Origin: Thiospirochaeta perfilievii
Lineage (GTDB): Bacteria; Spirochaetota; Spirochaetia; DSM-2461
NCBI RefSeq assembly: GCF_008329945.1
Contig: NZ_CP035807.1
Coordinates: forward strand, 558,001 to 622,000
DNA length: 64,000 nucleotides
Direction: 5' to 3'
Shown one piece after another: positions 1-40,342 of the stretch; the first letter of the stretch is position 1, and every line of letters starts with the position of its first letter. A model generated the notes under the pieces. The model was given only the letters and a program-made list of their open reading frames with translations. It made no database searches and was not told where the DNA came from. The translations under genes were made by a program, and so were the position numbers.

Positions 1-270
1 TTGTTAACTCTAATACCTGATGGATCAAAACTTCTATCAGTTAGTATTAAAGATGGTGTAGCATACCTGAATTTTAATGAAATGTTTAGGTTCAACCCAC
101 TAGGAGTGGAAGGTTATATAGCACAAATAAAACAGATTGTTTATACCGCAACTGAATACGAAACTGTTGAGAGTGTTTTATTTAGTATCGATGGAGCTAG
201 GCAGGAGTATTTAGGCCCAGAAGGTGTTTACATTGGTCGCCCTATCTCTAGGGCTGATTTAGAATTATAA
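1..270 (+). CDS. GerMN-domain protein, C-terminal fragment
   Basis: Only the last 89 codons are in the window; the gene starts upstream. The visible part matches a GerMN (sporulation/germination GerM-like) domain: a beta-rich start, a central SVLFSIDG segment and the closing YLGPEGVYIGRP block, which is the most conserved part of the family. GerMN domains occur in envelope proteins of many non-sporulating bacteria, so this does not imply spores. The exact role is unknown. Its stop codon overlaps the 3' end of the convergent ArsR-type gene by 6 bases. Confidence 0.75.
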   Translation: MLTLIPDGSKLLSVSIKDGVAYLNFNEMFRFNPLGVEGYIAQIKQIVYTATEYETVESVLFSIDGARQEYLGPEGVYIGRPISRADLEL

Positions 271-552
271 TGTAAGGTTTATATTCTGAATAATACTCTT
301 AACAAAATCATCTACAATGTTATAAATTCTTTTATTTCCATCAACCTTAGAAGTAACAATTCCTGCATCCTTTAGAATAGCTAAATGCTGGGATATAGAT
401 GGCTGTGATGTATTTAGACACTGCCATAGATCTCCAACACAAGAGGATTTATCCTCAATTAAAATTAATATTTTCATTCTAAGAGGATGGCCTATAACTT
501 TAAGTTTTTTAGCGTACTCGTTAACTAGTTCATCATTTTTGCATTTTTCCAT
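265..552 (-). CDS. ArsR-family winged-helix transcriptional regulator
   Basis: A 95-residue protein with the ArsR/SmtB fold. The sequence reads LKVIGHPLRMKILILI (helix 1), then the recognition helix around SQPSISQHLAILKDAGIV, then the wing KVDGNKRIYNI. Three cysteines (residue 4 and two near SSCVGDLWQC, one just before the DNA-binding helices) could form a metal- or thiol-sensing site, but the classic ELCVCDL box is not intact, so the ligand is unclear. The gene is divergent from the cysteine desulfurase across 74 bp and could regulate it. There is no Shine-Dalgarno; a TATAAT lies exactly 6 nt before the ATG, so the mRNA is probably leaderless. Confidence 0.88.
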   Translation of the reverse strand: MEKCKNDELVNEYAKKLKVIGHPLRMKILILIEDKSSCVGDLWQCLNTSQPSISQHLAILKDAGIVTSKVDGNKRIYNIVDDFVKSIIQNINLTL

Positions 553-558
553 AAATGA

Positions 559-587
559 ATTATAGATAAATAATTATTTGTTCGCAA
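559..587 (-). promoter_or_regulatory. Leaderless sigma70-type promoter of the ArsR-type gene
   Basis: On the minus strand: TTGCGA, a 17-nt spacer, a perfect TATAAT, then 6 nt and the ATG at 552. This places +1 on the A of the start codon. Confidence 0.7.
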
Positions 588-591
588 GTAT

Positions 592-620
592 TTAGATTTA
601 TTTGATTTATATTATATAAT
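592..620 (+). promoter_or_regulatory. Candidate leaderless promoter of the cysteine desulfurase
   Basis: A perfect TATAAT at 615-620 ends 6 nt before the ATG at 627, and there is no ribosome binding site. The -35 at the 17-nt position is poor (TTAGAT), so the promoter may need an activator or be weak. Confidence 0.5.
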
Positions 621-626
621 AAAAAA

Positions 627-1775
627 ATGATATATTTAGATTGGGCTGCAACAGCTAAACCAAAAAAAGATATTTTAAGAGAGAGCTTAGAGGAGAGTTT
701 AACACTTTATGGGAACCCTTCTTCTGTTCATGATACAGGTGTAAGCTCTAAAGAAGTATTAAACAGAGAGAGAGATAATATTTCAAAAATTCTAAATTGT
801 GATAACTCACAAATCTACTTTACTAGTGGAGGAAGCGAGTCAAATAATCTAATCCTATTATCTTTTTTAAAGAAGCATGGAACTGGGGAGGTTATAACAA
901 CTTCAATTGAGCACCCTTCGGTGGGGGAACCAATTGAGACACTAAATCAATTTGGATGGAAAATAAAAAGAATAAATCCAGATACAAATGGAATTATACA
1001 GTGTAATAAGGTATTAAAAAGCATAAATGATAAGACAAAAATTATATCAATTATATATGTTCATAACGAGACAGGAGTAATACAACCTTTAAAAGATATT
1101 GTAGAGTCTGTACGTAAGAAAGAAAATGAGATTGGTAAAAAAGTCCACATACATATTGATGGTGTACAAGCTGTTGGTAAGATAACAATTGATTTAAAGG
1201 ATTTAGATATCGACTCCTTCTCAATATCCGGTCATAAATTTGGTGGCCCAAAGGGTATTGGTATTCTCTACCTAAAAAAACCTAAAAATGTATTATATAG
1301 AGGTGGTGGTCAAGAAGGTGGTATTAGACCTGGGACAGAGGATCTTTTTGGTATAATTTCTATATCTAGATGCTTAAAAGAAGCTACTGAAAATTTAGAT
1401 TCCCGAGTTTGTGAAATAAATAGATTGATGGATCAACTTATTTTAGGGGTAAGGGAAATTGGTGTTAAAACAATTCCTAAAAACAGAGGTTTATCCGATG
1501 ATAATTTTATTCCCAATATTCTCTCCCTTACATATCCACCACTTCCTGGAGAAGTAATAAATAGGGTTTTAAACTCTAAGGGATTTATGATATCAACAGG
1601 CAGTGCATGTTCTAGTAATAAAAAAAGCACCACTAAGGGTATACTCTCCATGGGTATTTCAGAGAAAGAGGGATTTTCATCTTTTAGGGTATCTATTGGC
1701 CGGGATACAACAGAAAAAGATATCGAAAACTTTATAAAAGCCTTAGAAGAGACATTAAATGAACTTGCCCCATAA
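627..1775 (+). CDS. Cysteine desulfurase (NifS/NifZ type), partner of ThiI
   Basis: A PLP-dependent class V aminotransferase-fold enzyme of 382 residues that removes sulfur from L-cysteine and carries it as a persulfide. Visible landmarks are the N-terminal YLDWAATA, the cofactor lysine in SISGHKFGGPKG, and the catalytic cysteine loop STGSACSSNKK. It lies 25 bp upstream of thiI. In Bacillus subtilis such a thiI-linked desulfurase (NifZ) feeds sulfur directly to a ThiI that lacks a rhodanese domain. The ThiI here also lacks that domain, so tRNA 4-thiouridine is the likely main output. A role in Fe-S assembly cannot be excluded. Confidence 0.93.
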   Translation: MIYLDWAATAKPKKDILRESLEESLTLYGNPSSVHDTGVSSKEVLNRERDNISKILNCDNSQIYFTSGGSESNNLILLSFLKKHGTGEVITTSIEHPSVGEPIETLNQFGWKIKRINPDTNGIIQCNKVLKSINDKTKIISIIYVHNETGVIQPLKDIVESVRKKENEIGKKVHIHIDGVQAVGKITIDLKDLDIDSFSISGHKFGGPKGIGILYLKKPKNVLYRGGGQEGGIRPGTEDLFGIISISRCLKEATENLDSRVCEINRLMDQLILGVREIGVKTIPKNRGLSDDNFIPNILSLTYPPLPGEVINRVLNSKGFMISTGSACSSNKKSTTKGILSMGISEKEGFSSFRVSIGRDTTEKDIENFIKALEETLNELAP

Positions 1776-3832: not shown

Positions 3833-3861
3833 TTGCAGTTTTATTGTTATATATGTATAAT
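3833..3861 (+). promoter_or_regulatory. Leaderless promoter of the HPr gene
   Basis: TTGCAG at 3833-3838, a 17-nt spacer, TATAAT at 3856-3861, then 6 nt and ATG at 3868. The predicted +1 is the A of the start codon. Confidence 0.65.
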
Positions 3862-3867
3862 GGCAAT

Positions 3868-4140
3868 ATGGTAGAAACATCTGCAAAGATTCACAACAGT
3901 AAAGGTATACATGTAAGACCAAGTGGTTTAATTTTTAAGGCTATAATGAATTATGGTGGGGAAATTCTAATAATTAAGGATGGAGTTACAACTCCTCTTA
4001 GAGATATTATATCAATATTAACCCTAGGTTTAGCTTATAATGATGAGATAACAATTAGAGTAAGTGGTGTAAACGAAGAAGAGATGATAGATATTTTAAA
4101 GGATCTATTTGAAAAAGATTATAGATTTGAAGAGCAGTAA
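3868..4140 (+). CDS. ptsH: Phosphocarrier protein HPr with Asp at position 46
   Basis: A 90-residue HPr of the PEP:sugar phosphotransferase system. The ATG at 3868 is chosen over a TTG at 3844 because it gives the standard HPr length, sits 6 nt behind TATAAT and puts the active histidine exactly at residue 15 (GIHVRPSG, with Arg17 and Pro18). The residue that is normally the regulatory Ser46 is Asp here (PLRDIISILTLGL, counted from the ATG). In laboratory work on Firmicutes HPr, S46D mimics the kinase-phosphorylated form and slows transfer from enzyme I. No EI or EIIAB gene is in the window, so the protein could be a PTS carrier or a mainly regulatory one. Confidence 0.9.
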   Translation: MVETSAKIHNSKGIHVRPSGLIFKAIMNYGGEILIIKDGVTTPLRDIISILTLGLAYNDEITIRVSGVNEEEMIDILKDLFEKDYRFEEQ

Positions 4141-7219: not shown

Positions 7220-8074
7220 CTATCCCTTAATTGCTCCTCCAACTACACCTTTAGTTATATGCTTATTAAAAATTGCATATAAAATTATCATAGGTACAAT
7301 TGAAATTACTAAACCGGCCATTTGTAAGTGATACTCTGGAGTCCTAGGGTTAGCAAATGCAATAATCGTAGGTGGTAATGCCTTAGTAAATCTATTTGAT
7401 AATATAAATCCAAGTAAAAATTCGTTCCAAGTACCAAGAGCAGTAATTATAGCAACAGTTGCCATTACAGGTTTTGTCATTGGTAATATAATGTGGAAAA
7501 ATGTTAAAAATCTTCCAGCTCCATCAATCTGAGCAGATTCAACTAGAGAGTCTGGTAAACCTTTAATAAAGTCAGTAGCCATAAATACAGCCATAGGCAT
7601 ACCAACGGCAGAGTAAGTTAAAATAATTCCTAATCTAGCATTGTCTCCTGTTAAACCAGCGGATCTTAACATTAAAAACAGTGGTATTAAAACAGACTGT
7701 GTAGATATTAGTATACCTAATCCAACAGCAGATTTTAAAATAAGTGTAAGTCTTTTAAATGGGGATTTAGCAAATACATAAGCTGCCATCATAGAGCCCA
7801 TAACAACAATAATAAGTGTAAATACAAGATATATAGTAGAGTTTAAATAACCTAAACCAATATTACCAACTTCCCATGCTTCTGAAAAGTTTCCCCACTG
7901 TATTACTTCCGGGAAAGCTAAAGGTGCATTCTGAATCTCCTGTTTTGTTTTAAGAGATGAGTAACCAAGCCAAAATAAAGGATAAGTGGTAAATAATACA
8001 AAAGCTATAAAAATTGCATTTATTCCTATTTTTGTTGGGATTGTTTGTTTATTTATCTGATTTGAGTTTTTCAC
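7220..8074 (-). CDS. Sugar ABC transporter permease, MalG type
   Basis: An inner-membrane permease of a CUT1 carbohydrate importer with six predicted membrane helices. The coupling (EAA) loop is visible as ESAQIDGAGRFLTFFHIILPMTKP, which docks the ATPase. The GTG at 8074 is preferred to an upstream ATG because AGGAGG lies 6 nt ahead of it and it nearly abuts the stop of the MalF-type gene; this gives 284 residues, the usual size. No ATPase gene is in the operon, so a shared MsmK/UgpC-like ATPase is expected elsewhere, as is common for CUT1 systems. Confidence 0.9.
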   Translation of the reverse strand: MKNSNQINKQTIPTKIGINAIFIAFVLFTTYPLFWLGYSSLKTKQEIQNAPLAFPEVIQWGNFSEAWEVGNIGLGYLNSTIYLVFTLIIVVMGSMMAAYVFAKSPFKRLTLILKSAVGLGILISTQSVLIPLFLMLRSAGLTGDNARLGIILTYSAVGMPMAVFMATDFIKGLPDSLVESAQIDGAGRFLTFFHIILPMTKPVMATVAIITALGTWNEFLLGFILSNRFTKALPPTIIAFANPRTPEYHLQMAGLVISIVPMIILYAIFNKHITKGVVGGAIKG

Positions 8075-18335: not shown

Positions 18336-18364
18336 TTGACTTATACCCTTAAGAATATTATGTT
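18336..18364 (+). promoter_or_regulatory. Leaderless promoter of gshAB
   Basis: TTGACT at 18336-18341, a 17-nt spacer, TATGTT at 18359-18364, then 6 nt and the ATG at 18371. No ribosome binding site is present. A TATAAT at 18367-18372 overlaps the start codon and would begin transcription inside the gene, so it is not used in this reading. Confidence 0.6.
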
Positions 18365-18370
18365 TTTATA

Positions 18371-20674
18371 ATGGAAAATGTATTAAATGCTATCATAAAT
18401 AACGGCCTAGAACGGGAACTTATCTGTGGAGTTTGGGGCCTTGAAAAAGAGAATATAAGAGTTGATAGCAATGGAAAATTAGCACTAACACAACACCCAT
18501 TAGGGTTGGGAAATAAGATAGAACATCCATATATAACAACAGATTTTTCTGAGAGCCAGGTTGAAGTTATAACTCCTCCCTGTAAATCTATGGATGAAGC
18601 CTATTTTATGCTTGAAAATTTACACGATATTGTAACTGAAAACCTAGAAAAAGATGAGTACCTTTGGCCTAGTAGTATGCCACCTATAATACCTAAAGAT
18701 GAGGATATTCCTATTGCAAACTACGGTAATTCTAGTGAAGCAAAAGATAAAATGGAGTATAGGAACTATATAGCTAAAAAATATGGCAAACATAAACAGC
18801 TAATAAGTGGAATCCACTACAACTTCTCTTTTAACGAAGATTTTCTTAAGAAACTTCATGTTTTAAGTAGTGTTAATGAGTCTTTTTATGATTTTAAAAA
18901 TGGAATATACCTTACAGCAGCACGTAATTTATTAAAACATCAATGGCTTTTAACATATCTTTTAGGGGCAAATGTAGCAACTCACTCATCATATAAACAC
19001 TGTTGTAATAAGGATAGAGAAAATATTAAGGAAGAGGTTCTATTTAAAGGTGCGTGTTCATACAGAAATAGTCTCTGTGGTTATAGAAACAAAGAGGATT
19101 TTAGGGTCTCCTTTGATACTTTAGAAGAGAATATTAGAGACTTAAAAAACCTAATATCCCAGGGGCACCTACGGGGAGTTAAAGAGTATTATAGCCCTGT
19201 AAGGTTAAAGAACAGTAAGGATACTGATACTTTTGAAGCTCTAGAAAGGGATGGGATTGAGTATATAGAGTTAAGAATGATTGATTTAAACCCTCTATCT
19301 AAGGTGGGTATTTTTAGGGAAGATCTATCCCTTGTTCACCTCTTTATACTTTCTAGTCTGCTCTACCCATGTAGTAGTTATAACCATAAAGAACAGAAAA
19401 AAGCGATGGAAAATCAGAATGAAGTTAGTTTTAATGGTCATAATCTGTCTAAAGAGTTAAGGGATGAGGGGTTATTCTTTTTTGATAGAATGGAGAAAGT
19501 CTTAGATAAACTCTCTATCGATTGTGGTTACTATAATGATATTATTAGGGCTGCGAAGAGAAAACTATCCCATAAAGAGGAGTTATACTCTTATAAGGTT
19601 TATAATCTTGTTTTAAATGAAGGTTATATAAATCACCATCTCTCAATCTCTAAAGAGAATAAAAAGATAAGTCTAAATGAGAGTTACTCTTTAAAGGGGT
19701 ACGAAGACCTTGAACTATCAACTCAGATACTACTAAAAGAGGCGCTATTAAAGGGGCTTAGGGTTGAAGTATTAGATAAGAGAGAGAATTTTATATCAAT
19801 TAGCAATAAAAGAAAGATAGAGTATATTAAGCAAGCTACTAAAACATCACTAGACAGTTACTCTACTGCCTTAATAATGGAAAATAAAGCGATTACTAAA
19901 AAAGTACTACTTAAAAGTGGTATATCTGTTCCAAACGGTGGTATATATACAGGTATAGATAGAGCATTAATGGATTTTAATAAGTATTTAAAGAGTAAAA
20001 TTGTAATTAAACCAAACAATACAAACTTCGGAATAGGTATAACCATATTAGAAGCAAACTTCTCAATAGAGCAGTACCAAGAGGGTCTAGAGTTGGCCTT
20101 TAATAATGATGATACAATTCTAATTGAAGAGTTTTTTAAAGGAAATGAGTATAGGTTCACAATAATCGATGGAAAAGTTGCAGGAATACTTCAAAGGGTC
20201 CCAGCCAATGTAGTTGGAGATGGGAAGTCAAATATTTTAGAACTTATAGAGATTAAAAATAGAAACCCACTTAGAGGAAGAGGATATAAAAAACCCCTAG
20301 AGCAGTTAAAAGTTGGAAGTGAAGAGTTATTCTATTTAAAGAGTAAAAATTTAACCCCTAATTACATACCCCAAAAGGATGAAATAGTTTTTTTAAGGGA
20401 GAATTCCAACATTAGTACAGGTGGTGATAGTCTAGATTTTACAGATTTAATTGATACTAGTTACAAGGATGAAGCAGAGAGGGCGGCCAAGGCGGTTGGA
20501 GCAAATATAACAGGTGTAGATATGATGATTGAAAATATACAAAACAGAAGATCAGATACAAATGCAACTATAATTGAACTAAACTTTAACCCTGCAATCC
20601 ATATACACTGTTACCCTTTTAAAGGAAAAAATAGACGGTTAGGACTGCAGGTATTAAATGCCCTTGGCTTCTAA
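18371..20674 (+). CDS. gshAB: Bifunctional glutamate-cysteine ligase/glutathione synthetase
   Basis: Makes glutathione from Glu, Cys and Gly in one 767-residue protein. Residues 1 to about 450 are a GshA-type ligase (GVWGLEKENIRVDSNGKLA, TTDFSESQVEVITPP, and YIELRMIDLNPLSKVGI). The rest is an ATP-grasp domain with VIKPNNTNFGIGI, IEEFFKGNEYRFTIIDGKV and the metal-ligand IIELNFNPAIHIHCYP. This is the GshF/GshAB architecture known from streptococci, Pasteurella and others, usually tied to peroxide defence. The stop lies 1 nt from the convergent pdxT stop with no room for a terminator. Confidence 0.95.
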   Translation: MENVLNAIINNGLERELICGVWGLEKENIRVDSNGKLALTQHPLGLGNKIEHPYITTDFSESQVEVITPPCKSMDEAYFMLENLHDIVTENLEKDEYLWPSSMPPIIPKDEDIPIANYGNSSEAKDKMEYRNYIAKKYGKHKQLISGIHYNFSFNEDFLKKLHVLSSVNESFYDFKNGIYLTAARNLLKHQWLLTYLLGANVATHSSYKHCCNKDRENIKEEVLFKGACSYRNSLCGYRNKEDFRVSFDTLEENIRDLKNLISQGHLRGVKEYYSPVRLKNSKDTDTFEALERDGIEYIELRMIDLNPLSKVGIFREDLSLVHLFILSSLLYPCSSYNHKEQKKAMENQNEVSFNGHNLSKELRDEGLFFFDRMEKVLDKLSIDCGYYNDIIRAAKRKLSHKEELYSYKVYNLVLNEGYINHHLSISKENKKISLNESYSLKGYEDLELSTQILLKEALLKGLRVEVLDKRENFISISNKRKIEYIKQATKTSLDSYSTALIMENKAITKKVLLKSGISVPNGGIYTGIDRALMDFNKYLKSKIVIKPNNTNFGIGITILEANFSIEQYQEGLELAFNNDDTILIEEFFKGNEYRFTIIDGKVAGILQRVPANVVGDGKSNILELIEIKNRNPLRGRGYKKPLEQLKVGSEELFYLKSKNLTPNYIPQKDEIVFLRENSNISTGGDSLDFTDLIDTSYKDEAERAAKAVGANITGVDMMIENIQNRRSDTNATIIELNFNPAIHIHCYPFKGKNRRLGLQVLNALGF

Positions 20675-24348: not shown

Positions 24349-26259
24349 TTAGTTTTGAGCTATATCACAAGGATTTTTTTTTAAATGTTCAAAATCAATA
24401 TCGTAGATCAAGGAAATATATCTATCTATTACCTCAAAATCAATATCATTATTAATAAAATCCTTAGCGAGGGTGTTTAAATCCTCAATTTGTTTTTTAC
24501 TAAGTATTGGTATGGGTAGGGATTCAATATCACTACGAAGTATTTTTATAGCGTTAAACTTTTTTCTAAAAATAAATTTAAATAGGGATGAGTTTAAGAT
24601 AACACCAATAACCTTTATAGGAATGTCCTCTATTTTCGGAATCATTATATTTGCGCTATTTAGTGTAAGGTGTTTATTATTATCATAAGCAAAAACCAGT
24701 TCCTTATTAATAAATTTATATACTAATTTCTCTTTAGCCCTATATAGATCAATAGGAGCACACTGCTGATATAACTGGGGATTAAAATTGATATAACTAG
24801 TAGGGGGTAATAGTGTCATACAGGATAGATCCTTTCCCTTATATATAGGTTCCATACCATCCTTATAAATAGATGATAAGTGTTTTGAATTATTTCCAGT
24901 AACAATACCTAAAGCCCATTTAGCCCTACCCTTTAAAGTTAAATGGGGATAAGAATAAACTTTATCAATTAATTCTTGATCATTATTATCACAATATATA
25001 TCAATAATATTGTTTGTATTGCTTAAAAATCTACTTCCTTCCACCTGGTATGTGTCCATATCCGTTTTAATTGTTGTAATTGATCCTTTACTTCTAAAAT
25101 TAATCGACCCATCTAACCTAATAACCGATGAGAATACATTTTTAAAAAGTCGGCCACAACTCTCTATATAGTCAAGGCAGGAGTTATTTAAAAGATAGGA
25201 TCTAATATCTTTATGGTTTTTAACATAGAGAATGGATTCTGGAAGTACAAAAGAGTATTTTCCCCCTATCTCTAGATGGTTTATTGCAAAGTGTATAAAG
25301 TATGAAAAACTCTCCTTAGATTGTATACTAACATACTTCTCCTTTAAAAGTTCTAAGTCAATTTTACTAAATTTTGCACCCCAGGGAGGATTGGTTGCTA
25401 TAAAGGAGAAGTTTTTCTCCTTAAAATCTAAAAGAGAGTTCATATGATAGATGTTTGGTTTAAAATCCCTATCCTTATAGTAGAGAAGTAGATTAATTCT
25501 AGTTATATTTACAGCATTTTCATCTATATCAGCCCCCCATATTCTACTGGGATCACCTATTTTTTTTGCCATTAAAAGTAAAAACTGCCCTGTACCACAA
25601 CAGGGATCCAAAACCTTTCCAATTAGTAAATTATCATCAACAATCTGTTCTACAAGTGATGTGGGAGTATAGTAGGAGCCTAATTGGGACTTCTCCCCCT
25701 CATGCATTATTGACTGATAGATAATACCTAGAAAGTCAATCTCCTTAGGTAGAGGAGCTTCTAATAAAAATTTACAAAACCTATTATCTTCTTTAATCTC
25801 CCCATTACTAATAGTAGAAAACCATGATTTTAGCTCAAAATAGACACTCTCTCTTTTAAAGTAGGACTTATCCTCAAACTTAATAGCTTTATATAGGGTG
25901 CTCTTTTCTATATCCCCACTATTAATAAGTGCATTTATTGATAAAAGGAAAAGAGCTTGGGAAGGCTTAATATTATACTCTAAAATAAAATGAATAATAT
26001 CCTCTATTAATACTAGGGAGTTCTGATTATTTACATACTCTAATGGGATAAAATGTGTTCTAGAACTGCTTTTATTCGCCCTAGAGTCTAGTCTTTTTAT
26101 CTCTCCAGTACGAATTTTATCTTTTAAATCCTCAACTTCCACATTTGAGTACAGGTTATTATGTATAGCCTTAATGTATCCATGCCGTTCCCAATTTTTT
26201 AAACTAGCAACAGAGATACCTAATATAGAAGCTGCTTCATTTTTAGTAAGTAAATTCAT
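24349..26259 (-). CDS. DNA adenine methyltransferase with N-terminal MerR/Xis-like HTH
   Basis: A 636-residue amino-methyltransferase. The first 50 residues are a helix-turn-helix of the MerR/excisionase kind (LTKNEAASILGISVASLKNWERHGYIKA). The SAM-binding motif I is LDPCCGTGQFLLL near residue 217, and the catalytic motif IV is NPPW near residue 288, an N6-adenine type. The C-terminal 250 residues hold a target-recognition-like region with paired IPKIEDIPIKVIG and IPILSKKQIEDLNTLA segments as in Type IIG and TaqI-like enzymes. No nuclease domain or nearby restriction gene is seen, so it looks like an orphan modifier. Start chosen by a leaderless promoter. Confidence 0.85.
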   Translation of the reverse strand: MNLLTKNEAASILGISVASLKNWERHGYIKAIHNNLYSNVEVEDLKDKIRTGEIKRLDSRANKSSSRTHFIPLEYVNNQNSLVLIEDIIHFILEYNIKPSQALFLLSINALINSGDIEKSTLYKAIKFEDKSYFKRESVYFELKSWFSTISNGEIKEDNRFCKFLLEAPLPKEIDFLGIIYQSIMHEGEKSQLGSYYTPTSLVEQIVDDNLLIGKVLDPCCGTGQFLLLMAKKIGDPSRIWGADIDENAVNITRINLLLYYKDRDFKPNIYHMNSLLDFKEKNFSFIATNPPWGAKFSKIDLELLKEKYVSIQSKESFSYFIHFAINHLEIGGKYSFVLPESILYVKNHKDIRSYLLNNSCLDYIESCGRLFKNVFSSVIRLDGSINFRSKGSITTIKTDMDTYQVEGSRFLSNTNNIIDIYCDNNDQELIDKVYSYPHLTLKGRAKWALGIVTGNNSKHLSSIYKDGMEPIYKGKDLSCMTLLPPTSYINFNPQLYQQCAPIDLYRAKEKLVYKFINKELVFAYDNNKHLTLNSANIMIPKIEDIPIKVIGVILNSSLFKFIFRKKFNAIKILRSDIESLPIPILSKKQIEDLNTLAKDFINNDIDFEVIDRYISLIYDIDFEHLKKNPCDIAQN

Positions 26260-26265
26260 ATCTGT

Positions 26266-26294
26266 ATAATAAATAGTTTATCCCTTGGTTACAA
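26266..26294 (-). promoter_or_regulatory. Leaderless promoter of the methyltransferase gene
   Basis: On the minus strand: TTGTAA, 17-nt spacer, TATTAT, 6 nt, ATG. No Shine-Dalgarno is present. Confidence 0.6.
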
Positions 26295-26318
26295 GGTTAA
26301 TTTTATTCTATAAATATC

Positions 26319-26347
26319 TTGAAACTTATTAAGTTATAAGGTTTATT
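26319..26347 (+). promoter_or_regulatory. Leaderless promoter of the small outer-membrane-like protein
   Basis: TTGAAA at 26319-26324, 17-nt spacer, TTTATT at 26342-26347, 6 nt, ATG at 26354. It stands back to back with the methyltransferase promoter. A TATAAT directly before the ATG is an alternative -10 but would start inside the gene. Confidence 0.5.
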
Positions 26348-26353
26348 ATAATA

Positions 26354-26851
26354 ATGAAAAGAATATATATAGTTTTATTTGTTTTAATTTCAACTTTTAC
26401 CTTTGCCCAAGAAGATAGAACATCCTTTGTTATATCTGGTGGGACACAGTATTTAGATAACTTTTTTGTAGATTTTGGTTTTTCTATTATTAAACCATTA
26501 GCTGGAAATAAAGAGTTAGATATAAAGGTATCTTTAGATCTAAGAACTGAGAATGATGGTGAGAGTGTTAAACCTGAGTTTAATATCCCTGTTTATTTTG
26601 ATATAAATTTTTTATTCCCAATAGGTGAAAAGCTTACTTATTTAGTTGGAACTGGTATCACTCCTACACTAAGACCTCTAGGTGATGAAAGTATCTTTTT
26701 AATTGGACCAAATGCAAAAATGGGCTTTAGATATAAGATCCATCCATCAATGAGCCTACTACTTGAAGCAACACAATCCCTATTAATAGGTCCACCAAAC
26801 TGGATGTATTCAGCTACCCAGATAATTTTTGGAATTAACTTCTTTATTTAA
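26354..26851 (+). CDS. Small exported beta-barrel-like protein
   Basis: 165 residues with a clear signal peptide (KRIYIVLFVLISTFTFAQ). The mature part is made of alternating strands such as SFVISGGTQYLDNFFVDFGFSII and a final TQIIFGINFFI whose last residue is hydrophobic/aromatic in context, as in eight-stranded outer-membrane barrels. No family is recognised. It is divergent from the methyltransferase, and a dyad (26866-26914) follows it. Confidence 0.65.
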   Translation: MKRIYIVLFVLISTFTFAQEDRTSFVISGGTQYLDNFFVDFGFSIIKPLAGNKELDIKVSLDLRTENDGESVKPEFNIPVYFDINFLFPIGEKLTYLVGTGITPTLRPLGDESIFLIGPNAKMGFRYKIHPSMSLLLEATQSLLIGPPNWMYSATQIIFGINFFI

Positions 26852-39360: not shown

Positions 39361-39389
39361 TTGACATATAAATAACAACAAATTACTAT
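39361..39389 (+). promoter_or_regulatory. Near-leaderless promoter of the PfkB kinase
   Basis: A perfect TTGACA (39361-39366), 17-nt spacer, TACTAT (39384-39389), then 5 nt and ATG at 39395. No ribosome binding site lies between. Confidence 0.6.
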
Positions 39390-39394
39390 TAACT

Positions 39395-40342
39395 ATGAAG
39401 AAAAGAGTGTTAACAGTTACATTAAATCCAGCGGTTGATTTCACTATAGAAGTACCTAATTTTAAAATTGACTCTATTAACAAAGCTACACATAGTAGAA
39501 GAGATCCAGGAGGTAAAGGGATAAATGTATCTACTGCTCTATCTGATGGAGGTTTTATAACCAGTGCTACTGGGTTTATCGGAAAGGAAAATAGAGATAT
39601 TTTTACTAGTCACTTTAGAAAAAAGTCAATAATTGATAATTTTATATACGTAGATGGTTTAACCCGGGAGGGAATAAAAGTTACTGATACAGAAAATGAA
39701 ATTACAACTGATATTAACTTTAATGGAATAGATTTAAAACAGAAGGATATCGACAATTTTATTATTAAATATAAAAAGATTATTAAGGGTTTTGATTTTG
39801 TAATACTATCTGGTAGCCTTCCTAGAAGTCTTCCTTATGACTTTTATACTCTACTTGCAAAAATAGCTAGGGAGAACAGGGTTTTTGTGGCTTTAGATAG
39901 CAGTAAAGAAGCTCTTCTATCCAGTATTAATTCTGGTTTTATAAACTTAATAAAACCCAATATAAATGAGCTTACGGAGATATATCCAGAGATACAAAAA
40001 GCAACCAATAGAGAAAAAACTGTGGATCTTTTAGCAAAAAAGTTACTTCAAAAAGTTGAGATAGTAGCCCTATCCCTGGGAGAGGACGGAAGTAAACTGT
40101 ACACAAGAGATAGAATATATATTGCGAATGCTCCTAAAGTAAAGGTCAAAACAACAGTAGGTGCTGGAGATACATTTTTAGCTGGGTTTATTTTTGGATT
40201 AATTAATACTTGTACTATAAAAGATGCACTAAAAACTGGTGTAAGTTGGGCTACATCAAAAATAACAAAATATGGTCCAGGTTTATCGAAAACTAATCCT
40301 CCACAATTGTTTTGTGAAAAAATATTAATAGAGGAAAAATAA
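39395..40342 (+). CDS. PfkB-family kinase (1-phosphofructokinase/tagatose-6-P kinase type)
   Basis: A 315-residue ribokinase-fold sugar kinase. The N-terminal VTLNPAVDFTIEV, the GGKGINVS loop and the C-terminal anion-hole/base motif TTVGAGDTFLAGF are all present; LNPAVD and GGKGINV are typical of the FruK/LacC branch, which phosphorylates fructose 1-phosphate or tagatose 6-phosphate. No fructose PTS gene is adjacent, so the substrate is open. Confidence 0.9.
   Translation: MKKRVLTVTLNPAVDFTIEVPNFKIDSINKATHSRRDPGGKGINVSTALSDGGFITSATGFIGKENRDIFTSHFRKKSIIDNFIYVDGLTREGIKVTDTENEITTDINFNGIDLKQKDIDNFIIKYKKIIKGFDFVILSGSLPRSLPYDFYTLLAKIARENRVFVALDSSKEALLSSINSGFINLIKPNINELTEIYPEIQKATNREKTVDLLAKKLLQKVEIVALSLGEDGSKLYTRDRIYIANAPKVKVKTTVGAGDTFLAGFIFGLINTCTIKDALKTGVSWATSKITKYGPGLSKTNPPQLFCEKILIEEK

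Follow-up and report, generated by a model that had tools for sequence, protein, structure and literature searches.

The window, that is, the whole 64,000-nt stretch of DNA analysed here (G000:C1:558001-622000 of the 3.70-Mb, two-contig genome), carries near its beginning a divergent pair in which the genes of an ArsR-family regulator and a NifS-like cysteine desulfurase are separated by 74 bp (553-626). In the original prediction, this space was described as two leaderless promoters standing back to back, and promoters of the same fixed geometry were said to recur at other genes of the window. The features concerned are listed below, where each promoter is read from the sequence as -35 box, spacer, -10 box and distance to the ATG.

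265..552, reverse strand: ArsR-family regulator (HTH_5; Pfam PF01022, 1.8e-12), predicted leaderless, ATG at 552
559..564 (-10) and 582..587 (-35), reverse strand: arsR promoter, TTGCGA-17-TATAAT-6-ATG(552)
591..596, forward strand: weak nifS -35 TTTAGA, spacer 18, the best -35 found
615..620, forward strand: nifS -10 TATAAT, 6 nt from the ATG
627..1775, forward strand: NifS-like cysteine desulfurase (Pfam Aminotran_5, 3.7e-60), predicted leaderless start
3833..3861, forward strand: HPr promoter, TTGCAG-17-TATAAT-6-ATG (-35 3833-3838, -10 3856-3861)
3868..4140, forward strand: HPr-like protein (Pfam PTS-HPr, 2.6e-16), ATG at 3868
18336..18364, forward strand: gshAB promoter, TTGACT-17-TATGTT-6-ATG (-35 18336-18341, -10 18359-18364)
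18371..20674, forward strand: gshAB, glutamate-cysteine ligase plus ATP-grasp (Pfam), ATG at 18371
24349..26259, reverse strand: N6 DNA methyltransferase with TaqI-like specificity domain (Pfam), ATG at 26259
26266..26294, reverse strand: methyltransferase promoter, TTGTAA-17-TATTAT-6-ATG (-10 26266-26271, -35 26289-26294)
26319..26347, forward strand: small-OMP promoter, TTGAAA-17-TTTATT-6-ATG (-35 26319-26324, -10 26342-26347), -10 ambiguous
26354..26851, forward strand: small protein of 165 aa (small OMP), no Pfam match, ATG at 26354
39361..39389, forward strand: pfkB promoter, TTGACA-17-TACTAT-5-ATG (-35 39361-39366, -10 39384-39389)
39395..40342, forward strand: PfkB-family sugar kinase (Pfam, 3.7e-42), ATG at 39395

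We have checked the six promoters named in the prediction (arsR, HPr, gshAB, methyltransferase, small OMP and pfkB) letter by letter, and their boxes and spacings are all as described; the neighbouring leuA (6927, reverse strand) does have a clear Shine-Dalgarno (SD) sequence, as had been claimed. For the arsR-nifS space, the back-to-back arrangement stands in that both sides show TATAAT at 6 nt from the start, but nifS lacks a TTG -35. Since the arsR -35 and the best nifS -35 are three bases apart, the 74 bp hold hardly more than two core promoters. A palindrome search and an alignment found no conserved operator shared by the arsR-nifS intergenic regions. As to the small OMP, its TTTATT is overlapped by the better -10 matches TATTAT (d = 4) and TATAAT (d = 1), where d is the number of nucleotides between the -10 and the ATG. 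Together with the methyltransferase it makes a second divergent pair (starts at 26259 and 26354), with 94 bp between the genes (26260-26353) and promoters near both starts. In the HPr promoter, an extra in-frame ATG lies at 3853, inside the spacer; it is absent from the congener G002, so the start is likely at 3868.

To see the geometry at genome scale, we sampled 60 spread 20-kb stretches plus the window (1.264 Mb, about one third of the genome; GC content 32.6%). Codon usage called 925 genes, and 916 first ATGs were examined, the start being taken mechanically as the first ATG; as the -10 we accepted TATAAT with at most one mismatch, or TANNNT. TATAAT stands at d = 6 before 60 of the 916 starts and TANNNT before 85; each distance in the ranges d = 2-5 and 7-10 gives 14-27 for TATAAT and 21-43 for TANNNT. 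Permuted hexamers, used as the control for TATAAT at these starts, give no comparable peak. The full pattern TTG-N20-TANNNT-Nd-ATG is found at 21 gene starts for d = 6 and 13 for d = 7, while the other distances from 0 to 20 yield 0-5 each. In the d = 6 set, TTG is present at spacer 17 in 16 of the 60 genes and at each other spacer in 0-4. The proposed scan against background, run on this sample, returns a clear excess at d = 6 over both other distances and permuted hexamers. The wording 'exactly 6' needs relaxing, as 6 is the mode and 5, 7 and 8 occur too.

The genes with this box differ from others in several further respects. An SD-like sequence precedes 7% of the d = 6 set, compared with 56% of all genes. 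Part of this loss is geometric, because a -10 at d = 6 overlaps part of the SD zone, but the scarcity goes beyond geometry, since genes with a box at d = 4, 5 or 8 retain SD-like sequences in 22-35% of cases. A divergent upstream gene is seen in 54% of the d = 6 set (28% of all genes), and 79% are either divergent or at least 60 nt from the upstream gene (60% of all), as expected for genes that come first in their transcription units. The excess is confined to ATG, with none for GTG, TTG, CTG, ATT, ATA or ATC, although few GTG and TTG starts were available for comparison. In some of the Deinococcus and Mycobacterium lineages, GUG serves as a start codon too. The predicted leaderless genes are no richer or poorer in A behind the start codon than would tell them from the others, and divergent pairs leaderless on both sides number 7 of 91, against 4.6 expected, which is no clear excess.

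When a -35, a -10 at d = 5-7 and the lack of an SD are demanded together, 98 genes qualify; the same demands in seven control windows are satisfied by 8-26 genes, on average about 18. This leaves about 80 of the 916 genes in excess, i.e., 8-9%, or roughly one in twelve. Chance alone should account for about 18 of the 98, so any one gene may be a false positive (around one in five). The 16S 3' end carries the normal anti-SD sequence (7 matches); with the anti-SD intact, SD-led and leaderless genes would coexist in this genome.

The excess extends to the class Spirochaetia. TTG-N20-TANNNT-N6-ATG is commoner than the corresponding N9 version in all 41 class genomes, in 38 of them at p < 0.05, and the pooled counts are 2943 and 1204. 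Treponema putidum has 111 at d = 6 and 60 at d = 9, while an Eggerthellaceae MAG, serving as negative control genome, shows no excess (5 and 13). In one family member (G005, 171 starts sampled) the peak is slight: TANNNT occurs 5 times at d = 6 and 8 times at d = 7, where most of the surrounding distances have 0-6.

Orthologues of individual genes show which promoters have been kept. The gshAB gene of congeners G001 and G002 retains TTGACT-17-TATnTT-6-ATG while the spacer has diverged (protein identity 70%); the full-length fused gene is found in the three same-genus genomes only, among the 41 class genomes searched. HPr in G002 has TTGCAG-17-TATAAT-6-ATG, the same geometry as in the window, and the methyltransferase orthologue there has TTGTAT-17-TATTAT-5-ATG. 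For gshAB, HPr, the methyltransferase and arsR alike, spacer sequences have changed while the boxes were kept. Beyond the genus, HPr orthologues are mostly not leaderless. Of the other orthologue pairs examined with G002, most have SD-led starts in both genomes. Long conservation is seen at arsR, where TTG-17-TANNNT-(6-8)-start is present in 12 of 15 distinct class orthologues, always with a spacer of 17, compared with a control rate of 0.7% per site.

Across the class, 12 of 35 nifS homologues have the promoter (spacer 17-18): 9 of the 15 whose locus also contains arsR, but 3 of the 20 whose locus does not. The relatives of nifS come nearly all from Spirochaetales MAGs and Treponema. Its closest orthologue (L074, G002:C5; 61% identity) has an SD-like AGGA where the leaderless promoter would stand, and no arsR was detected in the fetched locus. 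Judging from these sequences, a switch of nifS from leaderless to SD-led in the G002 lineage is possible.

Some other features of this locus deserve mention. Downstream of nifS, after 26 nt, lies thiI (tRNA/thiamine sulfur transfer), with arsR divergent (265-2964 of the window). A cysteine pair (CVsdLWqC) is retained within the helix-turn-helix of the ArsR orthologues, most of which also have a KVCGHP cysteine that is absent from the window ArsR. Possibly this ArsR monitors sulfur transfer by sensing a thiol, a metal or persulfide. In addition, GTTCGCAAGT is common to the nifS/arsR intergenic region and the region before an rlmN-like gene (L066:3260-3310), which itself has a -10-like TATTAT 6 nt before its ATG; in the form TTCGCAAGTNNTT it occurs genome-wide at those two places only. 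That these two promoter regions have GTTCGCAAGT/TTCGCAAGTNNTT in common may be chance.

In our reading, this geometry very probably marks sigma70-type promoters that yield leaderless mRNAs. Such promoters would be ordinary ones of the housekeeping sigma factor, with the -10 ending about 6 nt ahead of the start codon. With sigma70-type promoters, RNA synthesis as a rule begins about 7 nt past the -10, so at d = 6 the predicted start is the A of the ATG. Transcription would begin on that A or within 1-2 nt of it, the mRNA would have a 5'-terminal AUG and no SD leader, and the ribosome would initiate at this AUG. Where transcription starts, which sigma factor acts and how the mRNA is translated are what we infer here from the sequence. 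This leaderless mode would operate beside SD-led initiation for roughly 8-9% of genes, which would mostly be first in their transcription unit and often one half of a divergent pair.

Could the mRNAs carry very short leaders instead? In many genes, transcription from the same promoters might begin slightly ahead of the ATG, giving leaders of 1-5 nt, and both the excess at d = 7 (the 13 full patterns above) and the distances of 7-8 in several arsR orthologues fit this. The mode, however, is exactly 6, which points to the A as the usual start, and distances of 7 or 8 would give a leader of 1-2 nt, functionally leaderless; we regard this reading as rather unlikely. The promoters might also be mimics, in that AT-rich leaders without SD (e.g., A/U-rich and bound by S1) resemble a -10 while the real promoters lie further upstream. 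A genome of such low GC content, in which 406 of the 916 starts are non-SD, would be a natural setting for it, but composition cannot attain a single-base peak coupled to TTG at spacer 17, and the permuted hexamers have no such peak, which makes it very improbable.

Wrong start codons are a further alternative, for the mechanical choice of the first ATG could leave the true, SD-led start downstream and the promoter serving a normal leadered mRNA. This is slightly less probable still, as nifS, HPr, gshAB, the methyltransferase and several arsR share their start residue with homologues (offset 0). Least probable of all, to a degree that we consider negligible, are chance matches picked by eye from one window of AT-rich DNA. 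The -10 consensus is loose, and the window ATGs at 7357 and 57301 fit the whole pattern though they are not at called gene starts, but the excess over controls in the remaining genome and in 41 related genomes refutes chance for the promoters as a group, even if about one in five single calls may be of this kind. Overall, the prediction that leaderless promoters of fixed geometry recur is backed by both the d = 6 statistics and the orthologues.

A wider claim is more tentative: leaderless initiation might be a class-wide second mode in Spirochaetia, with the leaderless state kept by selection across genera, above all at the nifS-divergent arsR. Perhaps an autoregulator functions best leaderless if it is squeezed into a two-promoter space, or if it has to be made while SD-led initiation falters.

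The leaderless mode here is not new in kind, since it was predicted in Spirochaetes in 2011 (PMC3160421) and mapped in Leptospira (PMC5243855). The original prediction had called it hardly documented for genomes of this kind, which is only partly right: these two studies precede it, and the literature searched gave no TSS map for Thiospirochaeta. That literature likewise gave no specific papers on leaderless mRNAs in Borrelia or Treponema. Of the 18 spirochaete genomes treated by Zheng et al. 2011 (PMC3160421), 6 had leaderless genes predicted from the same geometry (mean 3.9%, range 1.8-6.9%), and these 'TA-led' genes resemble ours, with the first T of TANNNT about 12 bp before the start, no SD and a preference for operon-first genes. 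Our share of 8-9% was obtained by another method, and we additionally tested and found the -35 at 17 nt, as well as conservation at the level of orthologues. In Leptospira interrogans, a member of the same phylum but another spirochaete lineage, dRNA-seq measured primary TSSs no more than 10 nt from the start codon in 430-450 genes and exactly at it in 170-184, while leaderless transcripts here are predicted; apart from sigma54, its authors report no shared promoter motif, in contrast to the clear TTG-17-TATAAT here (PMC5243855). Deinococcus and Mycobacterium, with 1174 and 505 leaderless mRNAs as cited in PMC5243855, are alike, as far as that citation goes, in having the -10 right before the start codon and SD-led and leaderless genes side by side, and unlike in being high-GC lineages with more leaderless mRNAs. 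Beyond these studies, the present analysis contributes the class-wide excess, the clear -35 and the long conservation at arsR.

In this way, a feature measured in Leptospira is extended, on sequence evidence, to another spirochaete lineage, with a testable list of 98 predicted genes from the sampled third of the genome; some 80 of them are expected to be true. Programs that find genes with the help of SD motifs may set start codons wrongly in this genome. Because arsR combines conserved boxes with freely varying spacers, selection on leaderlessness becomes directly testable.
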